NCBI RefSeq assembly: GCF_900112105.1
Contig: NZ_FOKV01000001.1
Location: forward strand, 868,001 to 932,000
Reading direction: 5' to 3'
Origin: Zunongwangia mangrovi
GTDB lineage: Bacteria > Bacteroidota > Bacteroidia > Flavobacteriales > Flavobacteriaceae
DNA: 64,000 bases
Shown: piece by piece, positions 28,153-35,172 of the stretch
Layout of the letters: every line of letters starts with the position of its first letter
How positions within the stretch are numbered: position 1 is the first letter of the stretch
The notes under the pieces: generated by a model
Told to the model about the DNA's origin: nothing
Databases searched by the model: none
What the model saw: the letters and a program-made list of their open reading frames with translations, nothing else
Translations under genes and position numbers: made by a program

Positions 28153-29691
28153 GTGAATTTTAACGAATCAGACATCCTGCAAATTCAGGACAAGGGATTA
28201 AGTACTGAAGAAGTAAATAGACAGATCGAAATTTTTAAGCGAGGGAATATTAAAGTAGATATTCAGGAAGCTGCGACGATAGGGAATGGAATTTCAGCCA
28301 TCTCAGATGAAGCAAGAACTGAATATATTCGTGATTTCGAGCACAAAAAAGAAGGGCTTGATTTGCTAAAATTCGTGCCAGCATCTGGAGCAGCAACAAG
28401 AATGTTCAAAGCACTTCATAATTTCGTAGCAGAATTTGATCCTAAAGAAAAAGAATTACGCGAATATCTGGACGAAAAAGGAGATTCTAGCCTACAATTA
28501 TTTTTTACGCATATAGAAAAGCTTCCTTTTTATAAGGATGCGGTCGCTGCGGCAAAAGAAGATAATAGCGATTTTGATGAGCTTAGTAACGATGAGCAAA
28601 AAAAGTTAATTGCTGAAAATGTACTTTATGCCAAAGGACTTGGGTTGAGCGATCTACCAAAAGGTTTGGTGCCATTCCACAAATATGATAATGTTGTTGT
28701 AACTGCTTTTGAAGAACATCTTTATGAAGCTGCGAAATATGCTGAAAGTAAAGGAGTGGTAAAATCACACTTTACTGTTGGACAAAGTGATAAGGAAAAA
28801 TTTGAAGCTGAATTCGATAAAGTTCAAAGTAGAGTTGAAGAGAAAACAGGTTCTAAGTTCGAAATTACCTATTCTTACCAGGATCCAAAAACCGATACGA
28901 TTGCTGTAGACGATGAAAACACACCTTTTAGAACAGAAGAAGGTGGAATGTTCTTTCGTCCTGGCGGGCACGGAGCATTGATCGATAACCTAAATCAACA
29001 GGATGCCGATCTTATCTTCGTTAAAAATATTGATAATGTAGTAACCTGGTCTAACCTTGGTGATGTTGTAGATTACAAAAAGATGTTGGCGGGTAAACTT
29101 TTAGAATTGAAAGCAAAAGCTTTTTGTTTGATCGAGAAGCTTCAGTCTAGCCCATCTGATGAGGATGTAAAGGAGGCGTCAACATTTCTTGCTGAAGAAC
29201 TATTCGTAAAGTCTCTAACAGGATCTGAGTCGGCTTCAGAATTATTAGAAAAATTAGATCGTCCGCTTAGAATTTGCGGAATGGTGAAGAATGAAGGAGA
29301 GCCAGGTGGAGGTCCGTTTTTGGTTAAAGATGAAGAGGGAGAAGTATCCTTACAAATCATAGAAGGAGCTCAAATAGATGACGATAACCCAGAACAGGTG
29401 AAAATCGTTAAAGAATCTACACATTTTAACCCTGTGGATATCGTTTGTAGTGTTAGAAAAGCAGATGGAACCACTTACGATCTTGATAAATATGTAGATC
29501 CAAACATGAGCTTTATTGCAAATAAAACCAAAGATGGGAAACCACTAAAAGCACTGGAGCGTCCTGGTTTATGGAATGGTGCCATGGCAAAGTGGAATAC
29601 TGTTTTTGTTGAAGTACCTGTAACCACATTTAATCCGGTAAAAACAGTGGCAGATCTTTTAAAAGAGAGTCACCAGCCATTAAATGATTAA
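28153..29691 (+). CDS. DUF4301 family protein
   Basis: A 512-residue cytoplasmic protein with no signal peptide or membrane helix. It fits DUF4301, a Bacteroidota family resembling nucleotidyl-transfer enzymes. A glycine-rich segment VPASGAATRMFKALHNF sits near residue 76, and FFRPGGHGALIDNLN near residue 272. The end PVTTFNPVKTVADLL is also typical. The start is GTG at 28153, as no ATG fits. It overlaps the arfB gene by eight bases, which suggests co-translation. The reaction is not established. The PASGAATRM loop suggests a phosphate-binding role. Confidence 0.82.
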   Translation: MNFNESDILQIQDKGLSTEEVNRQIEIFKRGNIKVDIQEAATIGNGISAISDEARTEYIRDFEHKKEGLDLLKFVPASGAATRMFKALHNFVAEFDPKEKELREYLDEKGDSSLQLFFTHIEKLPFYKDAVAAAKEDNSDFDELSNDEQKKLIAENVLYAKGLGLSDLPKGLVPFHKYDNVVVTAFEEHLYEAAKYAESKGVVKSHFTVGQSDKEKFEAEFDKVQSRVEEKTGSKFEITYSYQDPKTDTIAVDDENTPFRTEEGGMFFRPGGHGALIDNLNQQDADLIFVKNIDNVVTWSNLGDVVDYKKMLAGKLLELKAKAFCLIEKLQSSPSDEDVKEASTFLAEELFVKSLTGSESASELLEKLDRPLRICGMVKNEGEPGGGPFLVKDEEGEVSLQIIEGAQIDDDNPEQVKIVKESTHFNPVDIVCSVRKADGTTYDLDKYVDPNMSFIANKTKDGKPLKALERPGLWNGAMAKWNTVFVEVPVTTFNPVKTVADLLKESHQPLND

Positions 29692-30088
29692 TCAGGAAGA
29701 TTTAATAAAAGAACTCGACTTTAGAGCTGTAAAAAGTAGTGGTCCCGGTGGGCAACACGTTAACAAAACAGCTTCTAAAGTCGAGTTGTATTTTGATATA
29801 GCAGCATCTTCTGTACTTTCTGAAGTTCAAAAAGAGCGCTTGCTAAAAACATTTTCTACAAGAATTACCAAAGACCAGGTTCTTATTCTTCAAAATGGTA
29901 ATTCTAGAAGTCAGCATAAAAATAAAGATGCCGTGATTGGTCAGTTTATAGACATGATCAAATCTGGCACGAAAGCTCCAAAAGTTCGAAAAAGAACAAA
30001 GCCCGGAAAAATGGCTAAACTAAAAAGGCTGAGAGCGAAGAAGATTCAGTCTGAGAAAAAACAGAATCGAAAAGATCCATTAAAATAA
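29684..30088 (+). CDS. arfB: Peptidyl-tRNA hydrolase ArfB (release-factor-like ribosome rescue)
   Basis: A 134-residue rescue factor of the ArfB/YaeJ/ICT1 type. It has the catalytic GGQ loop in KSSGPGGQHVNKTASKVEL (Gly-Gly-Gln at about residues 22-24) and a Lys/Arg-rich C-terminal tail (KVRKRTKPGKMAKLKRLRAKK) that enters the empty mRNA channel of a stalled ribosome. It releases the nascent chain from non-stop complexes. It overlaps the DUF4301 gene by eight bases. A long hairpin follows the stop. Confidence 0.93.
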   Translation: MINQEDLIKELDFRAVKSSGPGGQHVNKTASKVELYFDIAASSVLSEVQKERLLKTFSTRITKDQVLILQNGNSRSQHKNKDAVIGQFIDMIKSGTKAPKVRKRTKPGKMAKLKRLRAKKIQSEKKQNRKDPLK

Positions 30089-30090
30089 AA

Positions 30091-30140
30091 CTGTGTAAAA
30101 ATTCTACACCTGTGGAATTTTGATGTGTAGAATTCTACAG
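30091..30140. repeat. Long imperfect hairpin with TTCTACAC repeats
   Basis: AATTCTACAC (30100-30109) and GTGTAGAATT (30125-30134) are perfectly complementary, and the pairing can extend to CTGTGTAAAA / TTCTACAG. A further ATTCTACAC is at 30156-30164. It may end the arfB transcript, or be a small palindromic element. Confidence 0.5.
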
Positions 30141-30224
30141 TTTTGATTATTCAATATTCTACACTTTTGAGCTCAATTTGTTTAAATGTAAGGGTTTAAG
30201 TAAGTTTTTAGCCTGTAGGCGTTA

Positions 30225-30354
30225 TGGCACGATTTTGCCTTATATTAAAGTAGTTAGGGTTATTGAAGGATTTTGAATAACTAACACAGCAGTAAACAGC
30301 TGTTGTATAATTTAGATTTTCGGATTAAAAGAGGCTGTGGTGGCCTCTTTTTTT
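30225..30354 (+). ncRNA. Candidate small RNA behind a sigma-54-like motif
   Basis: TGGCAC (30225-30230) and TTGC (30235-30238) resemble the -24/-12 boxes of sigma-54 promoters, but the GG-to-GC spacing is nine rather than the canonical ten. About 100 bases of non-coding sequence follow, with an internal hairpin (ACACAGC / GCTGTTGT, 30284-30306), ending in a clean terminator. A sigma-54-type regulator gene lies 1 kb downstream. The transcript is inferred. Confidence 0.35.
30327..30354 (+). terminator. Terminator in the gap before the 30709 gene
   Basis: The stem AAAAGAGGC / GCCTCTTTT with a seven-base loop runs into a T tract. No plus-strand protein gene ends just before it (the arfB stop is 240 bases upstream). 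Confidence 0.85.
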
Positions 30355-30708
30355 AGAAAAACCATCCATTGCTTCTTTTTGAATCTATAAAAGTGGTTTC
30401 GCTTTGAGATTCGTTGTTATTCGTGTTAATTTTTAAAACCATTATTTTGAAGTGTTATAAAATGAAAAAGCTATTTAGGCTTTCACACATTTCAAAATTG
30501 CTTGCTGCGCATCATTTCTACATAATGATTTCTTAAAACCTCATAATTTCTACAAAACTTTCAAATTTCAGATTTTTCATATTTATTCCAATATTATGAA
30601 TGTCAGTGTTTTATGTGCCGTCTTCGTCATTAGGTACAGTTTTTTCTTTATAATTATCAACCATAAGAAACTAAGAAACCAACACTATTTACATAAAAAC
30701 TAACTATT

Positions 30709-31050
30709 ATGAAAAAATCAGTTTTCTCGGTAATGGCAATCGCAGGATTGTTTTTTGCCACTCAGACCATGCATGCGCAGGAAGAACCAGTTGAAGAAAC
30801 TAAAGAAGAAGTAGAAGTAGCACCAGAAATGGTAGGCTTCGAAATGATCGATATTTTAGCTTTACCACAGCCCGTTAAAGATGCAACGATGACAGAGTTT
30901 AATGCAGTAGCATCTGAAGCTTGGGTTAAACTTGAAAATGAGAAGAAAATTTACAAACTAAACGTAGCCGTAGATGGTGAGGTAAAAACTGTTTATGCTA
31001 CAGCAGATGGAGAATGGCTAAAGGAAGATGAAGTAATTGATGCCAACTAG
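30709..31050 (+). CDS. Small secreted protein, PepSY-like fold possible
   Basis: A 113-residue exported protein with signal peptide MKKSVFSVMAIAGLFFATQTMHAQ and a Glu/Val-rich linker (residues 25-42). The mature core reads ILALPQPVKDATMTEFNAV, AWVKLENEKKIYKLNVAVDGEVKTVYATADGEWL as two short pieces. The pattern of a helix followed by strands and a final GEWL matches the PepSY/BLIP-like fold of small Bacteroidota periplasmic proteins. No catalytic residues are evident. It sits alone between two non-coding stretches that end in similar terminators, and upstream of an NtrC-type regulator. A link to that signalling system is possible but unproven. Confidence 0.75.
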   Translation: MKKSVFSVMAIAGLFFATQTMHAQEEPVEETKEEVEVAPEMVGFEMIDILALPQPVKDATMTEFNAVASEAWVKLENEKKIYKLNVAVDGEVKTVYATADGEWLKEDEVIDAN

Positions 31051-31132
31051 TATTAGCGTATTGAAATAGCATTAATAATGATGTTAAAGTGATGCCGAGT
31101 TACGAAGATTCCAACTTTGCGGCGGCGGATTC

Positions 31133-31318
31133 GAATCGGTTAGTGAGTGTTTTTAGGGCAATCTTAATACTACTAACTAACACATATAGGAAAGTCTGTA
31201 AGAATACATATTAAATTTGGCGATTTTTTCTAACCGATTCCCCGTTTAAAATGGGAGTAAACTTTTAGGTTATATTCTAATTTAGATTAAAAGGAGGTCT
31301 TTCACGGCCTCTTTTTTT
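31133..31318 (+). ncRNA. Candidate structured RNA or 3' region of the 30709 gene
   Basis: GAATCGGTTAG (31133-31143) pairs perfectly with CTAACCGATTC (31230-31240) across 86 bases. A CCC...GGG hairpin follows, then TAATTTAGATT and a GAGGTC/GGCCTC terminator. The end of this unit resembles that of the 30225-30354 unit: TAATTTAGATT before a GAGGC-type stem, and ACTAACACA further up in both. Confidence 0.4.
31291..31318 (+). terminator. Terminator before the NtrC-type regulator gene
   Basis: The stem AAGGAGGTC / GGCCTCTTT (one G-U pair) with a short loop runs into a T tract, 68 bases before the next start. Confidence 0.85.
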
Positions 31319-31353
31319 ATATTTTCTTTTTACGTAATTGGGTATATGTTTCA

Positions 31354-31361
31354 TAAATTTG
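31354..31361 (+). promoter_or_regulatory. Possible -7 box for the NtrC-type regulator
   Basis: TAAATTTG fits TANNTTTG and lies 24 bases before the ATG. The nearest TTG is only 13 bases upstream, so the -33 element is weak. Confidence 0.4.
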
Positions 31362-31385: not shown

Positions 31386-32735
31386 ATGCCAAAGATTCTC
31401 ATAGTAGAAGACGATGTTCCCTTCGGTACCATGCTTAAAACATTTTTGTCTAAAAGAGGTTACGAAGCAGAACTTTGTTTCTCGGGTAATGATGCATTAA
31501 AATTAATTTCTAAATCTGAATTCAATCTTGTTCTTACCGATGTAAGACTTCCAGATAATGATGGCTTAGATATTTTAAAAGAGGTAAAATCTAATAATCC
31601 TTCTACCCAGGTTATCGTAATGACAAGTTATGCTGAAATAAGTATGGCAGTTCAGGCAATGAAGGATGGTGCTTTTGATTATGTGAGTAAACCTTTTAGG
31701 CCAGAGTCGATTTTGCAAACTATAGAGAATGCTTTAGATACTGAAGTTGTAGCACAAAAGATTCCAAAAAAGCGAACAACTAAGACTAAGGAAGAGAAGG
31801 TAGATAATAGCGCGCAGTATATAAAAGGAGTTAGTGATGCCTCCAGAAAACTCAATGATTACATCGAACTTGTGGCGCCAACAAACATGTCGGTTTTGAT
31901 CACCGGTGAAAGTGGTACAGGTAAAGAAAATGTAGCAAAGAGCATTCACCGTCAAAGTAAACGTAAAGATGCTCCATTTATCGCGGTAGATTGTGGTGCA
32001 ATTCCAAAAGAAATTGCTTCCAGTGAATTTTTTGGGCATATAAAAGGTTCTTTTACGGGGGCAATTAATGATAAAACTGGGCATTTTAAAGCGGCCAATG
32101 GCGGTACTTTATTTCTAGATGAAATAGGAAATTTAAGCTACGAACTGCAGGTACAACTATTAAGAGCATTGCAGGAACGCAGAATTAAACCTGTTGGAAG
32201 TAATAAAGAAATTGAGGTTGATATTCGTGTGGTAACCGCTACAAACGAAGATCTTTCTCAAGCTGTAAAAGATGGAGAGTTTAGAGAAGATCTTTATCAC
32301 CGTTTAAATGAATTTTCTGTAAAAGTACCTTCCCTAAAAGATCGAAAAGAAGATCTTATGCTTTTTGCAGATCACTTTTTAGAAGAGGCAAATACCGAAT
32401 TAGAAAAAGAAGTGGTTGGCTTTACTGATGATGCCGTAGAAGCTTTTAAAAATTACTCTTGGCCAGGGAATCTTCGTGAATTAAAGAATATGGTAAAACG
32501 TGCTGTGCTACTTACTCAGGATAAATTAATTCCAATGAAAGTCTTGCCACACGAAATTGCAACTGCAGAAAAAAGCGAAGAGGATTACGGGCTTTTTAAA
32601 AACAAGAACGAAGAGAAACTAATTCTGGAAGCTTTAGAAAAAACGGGAGGTAATAAAAGTAAAGCGGCAAGAATGCTATCAATAGATCGTAAAACGCTTT
32701 ATAATAAATTGAAGCAGTACGATATTAAACTGTAA
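31386..32735 (+). CDS. Sigma-54-dependent response regulator (NtrC family)
   Basis: A 449-residue activator of RNA polymerase with sigma-54. The receiver domain (1-120) has acidic residues ED at 8-9, phospho-acceptor D52 and K102. The AAA+ domain (about 145-370) has Walker A GESGTGKE (174-181), a GSFTGA loop (221-226; the common form is GAFTGA) and Walker B GGTLFLDEIGN. A Fis-type helix-turn-helix closes the protein (GGNKSKAARMLSIDRKTLYNKLK). Its 3' end overlaps by 11 bases the end of the convergent hybrid kinase gene, the likely partner. A near sigma-54 motif lies at 30225. Confidence 0.95.
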   Translation: MPKILIVEDDVPFGTMLKTFLSKRGYEAELCFSGNDALKLISKSEFNLVLTDVRLPDNDGLDILKEVKSNNPSTQVIVMTSYAEISMAVQAMKDGAFDYVSKPFRPESILQTIENALDTEVVAQKIPKKRTTKTKEEKVDNSAQYIKGVSDASRKLNDYIELVAPTNMSVLITGESGTGKENVAKSIHRQSKRKDAPFIAVDCGAIPKEIASSEFFGHIKGSFTGAINDKTGHFKAANGGTLFLDEIGNLSYELQVQLLRALQERRIKPVGSNKEIEVDIRVVTATNEDLSQAVKDGEFREDLYHRLNEFSVKVPSLKDRKEDLMLFADHFLEEANTELEKEVVGFTDDAVEAFKNYSWPGNLRELKNMVKRAVLLTQDKLIPMKVLPHEIATAEKSEEDYGLFKNKNEEKLILEALEKTGGNKSKAARMLSIDRKTLYNKLKQYDIKL

Positions 32736-35172
32736 CTTCAGACTCCAATTCTCTTAATACCCTTTGTAATTGCTGGATCAATTGGTCAATTTCAGCATCA
32801 GAGACATTGGCTTTCTTTTCTAAGCGTTCTAAAACCGGGATCACAGGGGTGATTCTCATTTGTTTTAGCATCGGTAACATTTTGTGTGCTATCTGGCCAA
32901 TAGCTTCATAATTACCTTCGTTTTTGTGGAATTTTATTTTCTCAATATTTTCTTCTGAACTTTCTAAGAATGCTTTGATGATGATAAACATCGCTTCCTT
33001 GTCTTCGCCAGAAAACATATAAATGTCCTCAAGATTATAAAATTCATTTTGCTGAGGTACAAAATCGTCTTTAAAAACAAGCGCTTTTTCTTTAGTTTTT
33101 GGTTCGATATTAAAAACCTCGCTTATTTTTAATAAAAGATCCTTTGGTTTAAAAGGTTTGGTGAGCTTCGCGGTAAAACCGGTAAGCGTATACACTTCAT
33201 CCTTCATATCGGTCCGGCCCGATAAGGCAATAACCGGAGTTTTATAAAGGTTCTCATCTTTTTTGATCGAATTCATTAGCTGAAAACCATCCATTATCGG
33301 CATTTGGATATCGGTAAGGATTAAATCATATCGATTTTCATCCAAAAGTGCCAATGCTTTTTTACCATTTTCAGCAGTATCGAATTCTAGGTTATGGCTT
33401 TTTAGAAATTCTAAGGTAAGTGCTAATTGCGCCGGTTCATCATCGACAACCAAAACTTTTTTATTTCCGAAGTCGATATTCGATGTTTTTCGAGTCAGTT
33501 TTTTTTCTTTCTCTGCAAGTGGTTTCTTCTTAATTTTAGATTGCTCTACCGGGATGATGATGGTGAATTCACTTCCTTCACCCTGTTCACTTTGCAGGCT
33601 AATTTCACCTTTTAGTAAAGAAGTAAGGCTCCTGGTGATTGTAAGTCCAAGCCCGGTGCCACCGTATTTTTTCTCGATCCCACTATTTTCCTGGCTAAAT
33701 TCTTCAAAAATGATCTCTTGCTTTTCTTTTGAAATACCAATTCCGGTATCTTTTACCTTGATGATTAATTCCTGAGATTCTTTTATTTTTTGCTGAATTC
33801 CAGCAGTGACGATAATTTTTCCTTTTTCAGTAAACTTAAAAGCATTGGTTACCAGGTTGGCGATAATTTGCTTTATTCTGAAGGGATCACTTAAATATTG
33901 CGCATCGGCTTCTTCAGAAATATCAATAATCACCTCCAAATCTTTATTTAAACTGGCAGGAACATTATTTTGTACGGTGTCTGTAATTAGTTTTTTAGGA
34001 TTGAAAGGTAAATTTTCAACCGACATTTTTCCGGCTTCAAGTTTCGATAGATCCAGAAGATCATTTACCAAGTGAAGAATAAAATCTGAAGATTTATTAA
34101 TTTGGCTTAGGTAGTGACGCTGCTTATTGCCAAGTTGAGTTTTGTTTATCAATTCAGAATAGCCAATTACCGTATTTAAGGGAGATCTAAGATCGTGGGT
34201 GATCGCCGCCATAAGCTGTTCCCTTCTTTTTAAAAGGGTTTCGGCAAAATTCTTGGCTTCTTCCAATTCGATTCGGTATTGCTGGCTACGCCCAACATCT
34301 CGAATAATTAGCATTAAAAATAACAGGATCACGATTACACAAACAATACCTGAAATCATGATTATTGATACGGTATCCTCTAAAGTTTGTTGTGCTTTTT
34401 CAGTTCTTTCTAAAGAAGCTTCCCGCTCATCCTGTTCGATATTGGCTAAGATTTTTCTTAGTTGCTGGTTAAGCACCATATCATTATCCAGCAGATCATT
34501 TTCCTTTTCAATGATCGTATTTCTAAACCTAAGATTCGCTTTTTGAAAATCGTTTAAAACTTTTTTCACTGAATTCACCAACGAATCTGCCGTTTGGTTG
34601 GTCAAGGATTGTGCATTATCCGCGCGGGCATATTCCAGCCATTTTACTAAAACTCTTTTTTGGTAGGGTTCTAAGTCATTAAAGCGATCGTCGTAACCCT
34701 GGTTAGATTCAAAGCTTTCATTTACACGATTAAGCTCCTCCATTACCTGTTTATAGTAATTCGTGCTTCGTTCTTGCTCACGAAGATCTACTAAGGCTTC
34801 AAGGTTTTCGGTTTTAAGATCCAGTAATTTATAGATGCTATCCAGCTCGGTATGCAGTTTGTTTTCCCCATAAGCTTCATCTAATTCAACCAAATTCATC
34901 TTAATCGAATCCAGTTGTGCCTGGTATAAAACAATATCTTCTTTAGTGCCGGTTTGGATTAGGCGACGGCTAACATTTTCAGTTTCATAAAGATCGCTTG
35001 TAATTTCACTTACCAAAAATAGTTGGGCGTTGTTGCTACTATTGCTCTGCGCCATATTGCTAAAAATTACTACCCGGTTATAAATAAACCAAACGGCAAC
35101 AACAACCAAAGCAGCGGTAAGTAGATAACCGGCAACAACTTTTAGGGTGATGGATCTTTTTGTGTTTTGCAT
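32725..35172 (-). CDS. Hybrid histidine kinase with receiver and Hpt domains
   Basis: An 815-residue membrane kinase. Domain order: helix 1 (11-31), a periplasmic helical sensor region (about 35-265, CHASE3-like), helix 2 (269-291), dimerisation/phosphoacceptor domain with H326 (AAITHDLRSPLNTVIGY), ATPase domain (N box LVTNAFKF, G1 DTGIGI, G2 GGTGLGL), receiver domain with D621 (LILTDIQMP), and a C-terminal Hpt domain with H763 (IAHKMLPML). This allows a full internal phosphorelay His-Asp-His, then to a separate receiver. The convergent NtrC-type regulator is the obvious candidate for it. Confidence 0.95.
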   Translation of the reverse strand: MQNTKRSITLKVVAGYLLTAALVVVAVWFIYNRVVIFSNMAQSNSSNNAQLFLVSEITSDLYETENVSRRLIQTGTKEDIVLYQAQLDSIKMNLVELDEAYGENKLHTELDSIYKLLDLKTENLEALVDLREQERSTNYYKQVMEELNRVNESFESNQGYDDRFNDLEPYQKRVLVKWLEYARADNAQSLTNQTADSLVNSVKKVLNDFQKANLRFRNTIIEKENDLLDNDMVLNQQLRKILANIEQDEREASLERTEKAQQTLEDTVSIIMISGIVCVIVILLFLMLIIRDVGRSQQYRIELEEAKNFAETLLKRREQLMAAITHDLRSPLNTVIGYSELINKTQLGNKQRHYLSQINKSSDFILHLVNDLLDLSKLEAGKMSVENLPFNPKKLITDTVQNNVPASLNKDLEVIIDISEEADAQYLSDPFRIKQIIANLVTNAFKFTEKGKIIVTAGIQQKIKESQELIIKVKDTGIGISKEKQEIIFEEFSQENSGIEKKYGGTGLGLTITRSLTSLLKGEISLQSEQGEGSEFTIIIPVEQSKIKKKPLAEKEKKLTRKTSNIDFGNKKVLVVDDEPAQLALTLEFLKSHNLEFDTAENGKKALALLDENRYDLILTDIQMPIMDGFQLMNSIKKDENLYKTPVIALSGRTDMKDEVYTLTGFTAKLTKPFKPKDLLLKISEVFNIEPKTKEKALVFKDDFVPQQNEFYNLEDIYMFSGEDKEAMFIIIKAFLESSEENIEKIKFHKNEGNYEAIGQIAHKMLPMLKQMRITPVIPVLERLEKKANVSDAEIDQLIQQLQRVLRELESEVTV

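Follow-up and report, generated by a model that had tools for sequence, protein, structure and literature searches.

Does the stretch between the arfB-like gene and the gene of a small secreted protein in Zunongwangia mangrovi encode a regulatory RNA, and is such an RNA controlled by the NtrC-type response regulator encoded next to it? To our knowledge, few regulatory RNAs are understood in Bacteroidota. A first-pass annotation of the window (the whole stretch of 64,000 nucleotides analyzed here, positions 868,001 to 932,000 of contig NZ_FOKV01000001.1) had suggested a small RNA at this place, belonging to a sensing unit together with the secreted protein, the regulator, and a hybrid kinase. 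Our preferred reading, which we hold with a probability of about 0.67, is that this non-coding RNA of ~100 nt is co-activated with the secreted PepSY-like protein by the neighboring regulator and acts in trans. The features of the locus are collected in Table 1.

TABLE 1 Features of the locus, numbered from the first letter of the window
Feature	Position	Strand	Remarks
arfB-like gene	29684-30088		Upstream neighbor of the small RNA; NCBIfam ArfB match
Putative activating sites upstream of the RNA promoter	30102-30163	+	TTCTACA / TGTRGAA
Sigma-54-like promoter of the RNA, TGGCACGATTTTGCC	30225-30239	+	Best written TGGYAYRRTTTTNNN
Small RNA	30252-30354	+	Start predicted at 30250-30252 from the promoter layout and the 5′ edge of conservation
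Hairpin 1	30253-30285	+	GTTAG-GG-TTATT / AATAA-CTAAC
Hairpin 2	30287-30305	+	CAGCAG / CTGTTG
Single-stranded segment, TATAATTTAGATTTTCGGA	30306-30324	+	Near-invariant in three genera
Intrinsic terminator of the RNA	30327-30354	+	Predicted at 30327-30351
Candidate activating sites of the PepSY-like gene	30516-30554	+	Two TTCTACA direct repeats, -116 and -84 from the promoter
Sigma-54-like promoter of the PepSY-like gene, AGGTACAGTTTTTTC	30632-30646	+	
Gene of the 113-aa secreted PepSY-like protein	30709-31050	+	Signal peptide assigned by visual inspection
Conserved structured 3′ untranslated region of the PepSY-like gene	31108-31321	+	Ends in a terminator
Candidate housekeeping promoter of the regulator gene	31338-31361	+	TTG ... 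TAAATTTG
NtrC-type response regulator gene	31386-32735	+	Receiver, sigma-54 interaction, and Fis-type DNA-binding domains
Hybrid histidine kinase gene	32725-35172	-	HisKA, ATPase, and receiver domains; weak Hpt match (E 0.044)

A conserved RNA unit in three genera

The first-pass annotation had described about 100 non-coding bases with an internal hairpin, followed by a strong terminator that ends no protein gene. We found the terminator as described and two internal hairpins rather than one. The stretch from 30236 to 30354 had a fold z-score of -2.26, and the RNA lacks any ATG and any reading frame open along its whole length. A search against Rfam assigned the stretch to no family at the gathering or the relaxed level, the best hit being SraG with 37 bits against a threshold of 50. 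The unit has a promoter of its own (by sequence only), an intrinsic terminator of its own, and no reading frame.

An alignment of six Zunongwangia genomes showed a sharp block of near-identity at 30252-30354 with both flanks diverged, save for a box at about 30222-30236 and, still farther upstream, short repeats. In all six, the RNA lies beside the regulator. A covariance model built from these six sequences, R1, placed the RNA at the same position in Salegentibacter and in Christiangramia/Gramella. Together with the motif searches below, conservation in relatives, proposed earlier as a check on the RNA, was seen at every one of 26 loci in three genera (6/6 Zunongwangia genomes, 15/15 Salegentibacter genomes examined, and 5/5 Christiangramia/Gramella loci retrieved). 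The most conserved part is short. A 19-nt motif occurred once per genome in all 15 Salegentibacter genomes with zero mismatches when one was allowed, and a 25-nt motif was found in 6 of 397 Flavobacteriaceae genomes and 3 of 237 genera, every time exactly although two mismatches were allowed, with 0 matches for the reversed control. One Zunongwangia genome (G005) differs at an edge base of the 19-nt motif, which reduces the strictly invariant part to 18 bases. This core, ATAATTTAGATTTTCGGA, was exact in 26/26 loci, those of Salegentibacter having been found through that very motif with one mismatch allowed. The sequence of hairpin 1 differs between the genera (in a comparison of all but the last three loci), and the stem of the terminator is variable among the loci. 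The unpaired segment is the part that does not vary, as would fit a pairing or protein-binding segment, and we propose this role for 30306-30324.

The surroundings of the RNA are conserved as well. The order DUF4301, arfB-like, PepSY-like, regulator, and kinase gene is the same in the window and in the examined loci of the three genera. The arfB-like gene precedes the RNA and the PepSY-like and regulator genes follow it in 25 of the 26 loci, the contig ending in the 26th; in Salegentibacter, the arfB-like gene was present in 15/15 loci and the two downstream genes in 14/15, the 15th lying at a contig end. The regulator gene starts 1 kb beyond the RNA, just where the first-pass annotation had put it. 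By every sequence criterion tested, the stretch 30252-30354 is a conserved small RNA gene.

Promoter boxes and shared upstream sites

The boxes read earlier as a sigma-54-like promoter, TGGCAC at 30225-30230 and TTGC at 30235-30238, are both present, four bases apart, but the -12 half turned out to be weaker than had been claimed. Within the window, TGGCAYNNNNTTGC had one exact match, and with up to one mismatch it had 4 matches compared with 5.8 expected from shuffles; across the genome, TGGYAYRRTTTTNNY with one mismatch gave 162+136 matches compared with 149+135 for the reversed control. Being at chance level in both, the box alone is no evidence for a promoter, and it is its conservation across loci that raises it above chance. 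A TGGYAYRRTTTT site was found 66 to 84 nt upstream of the RNA motif in 25 of the 26 loci and 450 nt upstream in the other, TGGYAYRRTTTT being the search pattern, which means that those columns are fixed by selection. Likewise, GG at -24 with conserved flanks was present in 26/26 loci with TGGYAYRRTTTT as the search term. The classical -12 GC ten bases after the GG was found at 0 of the 26 RNA promoters. GC nine bases after the GG, the spacing one short of ideal that had been noted before, was found at 3/26, i.e., in the window and in two other Zunongwangia genomes, and 13/26 have the C alone at -12. Because the classical GC is missing at its usual spacing, we call the promoter sigma-54-like only.

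The genome has a single copy of rpoN and encodes an activator with a sigma-54 interaction domain. The usual motif of sigma-54 activators is GAFTGA, in place of which the regulator has GSFTGA. In 25 of the 26 loci, no housekeeping TAnnTTTG box lies close to the predicted start of the RNA. The same box lies no more than 70 nt from the regulator start in 12 of 29 other loci; the consensus is that of a 5′-end start map of Flavobacterium psychrophilum, in the cited part of that work (PMC9723704). A stricter sigma-54 pattern had two sites in the genome, both within genes, and since the box search of this genome gave no excess over the control, we derived no regulon from it. A further site that fits the sigma-54-like pattern exactly, TGGTATAATTTTAAC, is located at 77-91 of the window.

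Further upstream, TTCTACA-type half-sites start at 30102, 30111, 30126, 30133, and 30157 and include the palindrome TGTAGAATTCTACA (30126-30139), and half-sites were found at the corresponding places in the other Zunongwangia genomes. A terminator-like sequence at 30110-30140, within these sites, may end the arfB-like gene. The 150 bp before the 26 RNA promoters contained 61 matches to TTCYACA/TGTRGAA (shuffle mean 1.3, largest 5), and 48 half-sites were counted before the PepSY-like promoters of 24 of the 26 loci (shuffle mean 1.0, largest 4), figures that overstate independence because the shuffles were of single bases and the loci are related. At least two half-sites were present at 21/26 RNA promoters, and the five Christiangramia/Gramella promoters have one each; before the PepSY-like gene, a pair 31 to 32 bp apart near -116 and -84 was always found (24/24 scored). 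A stronger case for shared control comes from the likeness of the RNA and PepSY-like promoters within one and the same locus. The idea of a sensing unit with an RNA output, raised by the first-pass annotation, gains support from these TTCTACA sites, which are common to the upstream regions of the RNA and the secreted-protein gene.

Across the genome, TTCTACA-N18-28-TTCTACA occurred seven times (control, 2), two of which were the RNA and PepSY-like promoters. Four of the other five lie inside reading frames, and one is intergenic before a gene that was named blaI-like by eye; we took these repeats elsewhere in the genome as unrelated. Given the array before the blaI-like gene, the motif does not belong to this regulator alone.

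That array also bears on a different account, in which a genuine, transcribed unit answers to some other regulator or sigma factor and lies beside the NtrC-type gene only incidentally. The -12 GC at ideal spacing, missing from all 26 promoters, would be consistent with this account, and the genome encodes further proteins with the same domain make-up as the regulator. However, the RNA and PepSY-like promoters of one locus have the same -24 box and heptamers, and each of the 22 loci checked beyond the three genera also has a small secreted gene next to this very regulator (by eye). We therefore regard an incidental neighbor as unlikely, and the RNA is probably controlled together with its secreted neighbor by the adjacent regulator.

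The anatomy, conservation, and synteny of the RNA, its conserved -24 box, and the heptamers common to the two promoters are seen in the sequences; from transcription and its dependence on sigma-54 and the regulator to phosphate flow, mode of action, and feedback, we infer the following course of events for this co-activation. The hybrid kinase would sense an envelope signal and hand phosphate to the NtrC-type regulator, which would bind the TTCTACA repeats ~70 to 130 bp upstream of both promoters and fire the RNA and PepSY-like promoters together. Transcription from its own sigma-54-like promoter would yield an RNA of ~100 nt that stops at its own terminator and may act in trans via the segment 30306-30324, by pairing with mRNA or binding a protein. 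The PepSY-like protein would have its role in the envelope and may feed back on the kinase.

The secreted partner, loci outside the three genera, and the oa5 unit

The window's 113-aa protein had no Pfam match and did not reach the cut-off of PepSY-like (PF11396), to which the name refers. Among 13 aligned proteins, PepSY_like matches were obtained for eight with E up to 0.1 (best, 1.2e-4), the two with scores shown being both below the Pfam cut-off. Its predicted structure had a mean pLDDT of 72.5 and was confident from about residue 41-50 to 110. The five best structure rows, from four entries (3db7, 3u1w, 3due, and 4hbr), had E values from 0.007 to 0.28, none at or below 0.001, and a TM score of at most 0.46. 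All are solved proteins, periplasmic or calcium binding, from relatives of Bacteroides; the name DUF2874 is attached to 3due. They presumably have a PepSY-like fold in common. Downstream of the gene, the region 31108-31321 has a branched structure without an Rfam match, in which 9 pairs were changed on both sides among six genomes, a number reached by 0 of 500 shuffles. On this pattern, the 3′ untranslated region could be a second regulatory RNA or the source of one.

The first-pass annotation had named poor conservation in genomes that keep the regulator and kinase as evidence against its RNA. Conservation was strong in the three genera, but beyond them none of 23 regulator/kinase loci, which include Aquimarina, Gillisia, Salinimicrobium, Aequorivita, Haloflavibacter, and Cochleicola, had a match to model R1 (E up to 1, default filters). 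A strict promoter pattern was likewise found in 0 of 22 such loci, and 15 of the 22 have TTCYACA ahead of the small secreted gene. The RNA is thus a clade-specific output and not an obligate part of the system. In all 22 loci measured, ~190 to 230 nt separate the arfB-like gene from the start of the small secreted gene (for L071, an internal start is used), and this gap leaves no space for an extra unit; the RNA is accordingly an added output of an older system.

The same spacing speaks to another possibility, in which the RNA would serve the PepSY-like gene as leader or attenuator: most transcripts from the upstream promoter would end at the terminator, and readthrough would determine how much protein is made. 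Its orientation is that of the gene, and its terminator lies ~350 nt ahead of it, as a leader would allow. Yet the PepSY-like gene has a conserved -24 box and heptamer pair of its own downstream of that terminator, and the gap of ~190 to 230 nt in 22/22 outside loci is too small to hold the unit. We consider a leader very unlikely.

Several other elements were seen in these searches. Model R1 matched 20 of the 397 genomes, 14 of which we rejected as orthologues given that the true motif, carried by only six, is absent. Most matches in those 14 have the terminator loop in common with the RNA, and at the two loci with genes listed (L020 and L022) they come after a small secreted-protein gene. 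We also dropped a candidate in G002 (L205) that combines the motif core with a nearby promoter-like box. Other Flavobacteriaceae genera have a different conserved element, CATTAATAATTAGTTTAATG ... GGTAAAAGTGAGCTGTGGTGGCTCAC followed by a T run, in two or three copies ~1 to 2 kb apart in some genomes (L020-L038; e.g., L038:326-2527 and L022:543-1600), which trail small secreted-protein genes in L020 and L022. In Haloflavibacter and Cochleicola (L085 and L091), two tandem small secreted-protein genes precede the same regulator, which suggests repeated duplication at this slot.

One locus in the clade departs from the rest. At the slot of Salegentibacter sp. oa5 (L069, also L178), heptamers are followed in order by TGGCATGATTTTTT, a PepSY-like gene, hairpin 2, the identical motif, and a terminator. 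The gene (L069:2796-3176) is intact and encodes a 126-aa secreted PepSY-like protein with 25 to 44% identity to the clade's other PepSY-like proteins; oa5 is the only locus with a protein gene inside the unit, the other 25 having none. By this arrangement, the RNA unit and the PepSY-like mRNA unit look like versions of one unit. The intact gene could also be taken to mean that the RNA has no function and is what remains of a lost protein gene, with promoter and terminator still in place. We give this very little credence, less even than a leader, as neither 18 bases exact in 26/26 loci of three genera nor the retention of the promoter box and heptamers is expected of a relic.

A functional RNA related to the PepSY-like mRNA is a different matter. 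The RNA and the mRNA may be two states of one unit, a tandem copy of the neighboring PepSY-like gene under sigma-54-like control that kept its promoter, activating sites, and functional 3′ end; for this we see the odds as even. The likeness between the 3′ part of the RNA and the PepSY-like 3′ untranslated region was marginal, with 3 of 10 loci at or below 0.05 (0.002, 0.026, and 0.050). In the regulator tree, oa5 falls within Salegentibacter, which by simple counting favors one gain over at least two losses. In the protein tree, a long, weakly supported branch (85/46) sets the oa5 protein outside all other PepSY-like proteins of the clade, and this deep placement favors old presence followed by losses. 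If the two-state reading is true, a stand-alone regulatory RNA arose from the untranslated ends of the secreted partner of a two-component system or, the other way round, a protein gene was taken up into an RNA unit, and one regulator would be left with a pair of outputs, a protein and an RNA. The oa5 locus provides a side-by-side case of one promoter and one 3′ end in the presence and absence of a protein gene, and this bears on the origin of small RNAs.

Candidate targets and relation to known relays

A search of the six genomes for the exact complement of the segment core returned 26 places, six being the RNA loci themselves, and the remaining 20 were below the control of 43. Three of the complement loci recur between genomes, with no start codon at a common place; an ATG-started frame lies within 60 nt of the complement in 1/4 members of one, in 1/2 of another, and nowhere in the third. 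Duplex energies of the RNA with neighboring mRNA regions were below 0.05 against shuffles in 0 of 14 tests. Neither approach revealed a target.

Sigma-54-dependent small RNAs serve as the output of relays with an NtrC-type regulator elsewhere, as do the Qrr RNAs for LuxO and CrcZ for CbrB in Pseudomonas. Unlike these, the RNA described here has no Rfam relationship to them, is single copy, and comes from a different phylum. The small RNAs GlmY and GlmZ have Rfam models, and the Zunongwangia RNA is without Rfam relationship to these, too.

In the cited accounts, the enterobacterial QseE/QseG/QseF system (GlrK/YfhG/GlrR) has a sigma-54-activating regulator that acts on the promoter of the small RNA GlmY through upstream sites (PMC6075780, PMC8745638), and the locus studied here resembles it, as described there, in a sigma-54-type regulator that would lead to a small RNA and in a kinase and a secreted accessory protein encoded in the locus. 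However, the locus here has a hybrid kinase gene convergent with that of the regulator and a PepSY-like accessory protein in contrast to the lipoprotein QseG, one gene lies between the RNA and the regulator, and the RNA has a terminator of its own. Qrr RNAs and LuxO of Vibrio are treated in PMC8043402 and PMC2680268; the likeness here, as to CrcZ/CbrB, is that the proposed relay ends in an NtrC-type regulator and has a small RNA as its output. The pairing of protein and RNA within a two-component system recalls CpxP/CpxQ of the enterobacterial envelope response, where, according to the parts cited, the mRNA of a secreted protein and a small RNA have one origin (PMC4817254, PMC9438474). CpxQ is described there as cut from the cpxP mRNA, whereas the RNA here has its own promoter, and 25/26 loci have no space for a protein gene in the unit.

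Closer in phylogeny, the cited part of the 5′-end map of F. psychrophilum reports sigma-54-type starts at exported-protein genes and at one putative regulatory RNA, Rfp36 (PMC9723704), which makes such RNAs in Flavobacteriaceae not a new idea. Rfp36, compared by its description only, is similar to the predicted RNA in its sigma-54-type start, its class, and its family, but the motif of the Zunongwangia RNA was found in only three genera. Among the matches listed, we found no literature on this RNA or locus in titles and abstract openings. The link of the RNA to a protein-coding unit is unusual. With a single-copy RNA, a candidate activator, a secreted protein predicted to be co-regulated, and an invariant segment of 18 bases, the activator, the inducing condition, and the targets are directly testable. 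Elsewhere in the window, the minus strand at 55245-55279 matches the S16-Flavobacteria ribosomal protein leader of Rfam with 55 bits, above the gathering score of 35.7.
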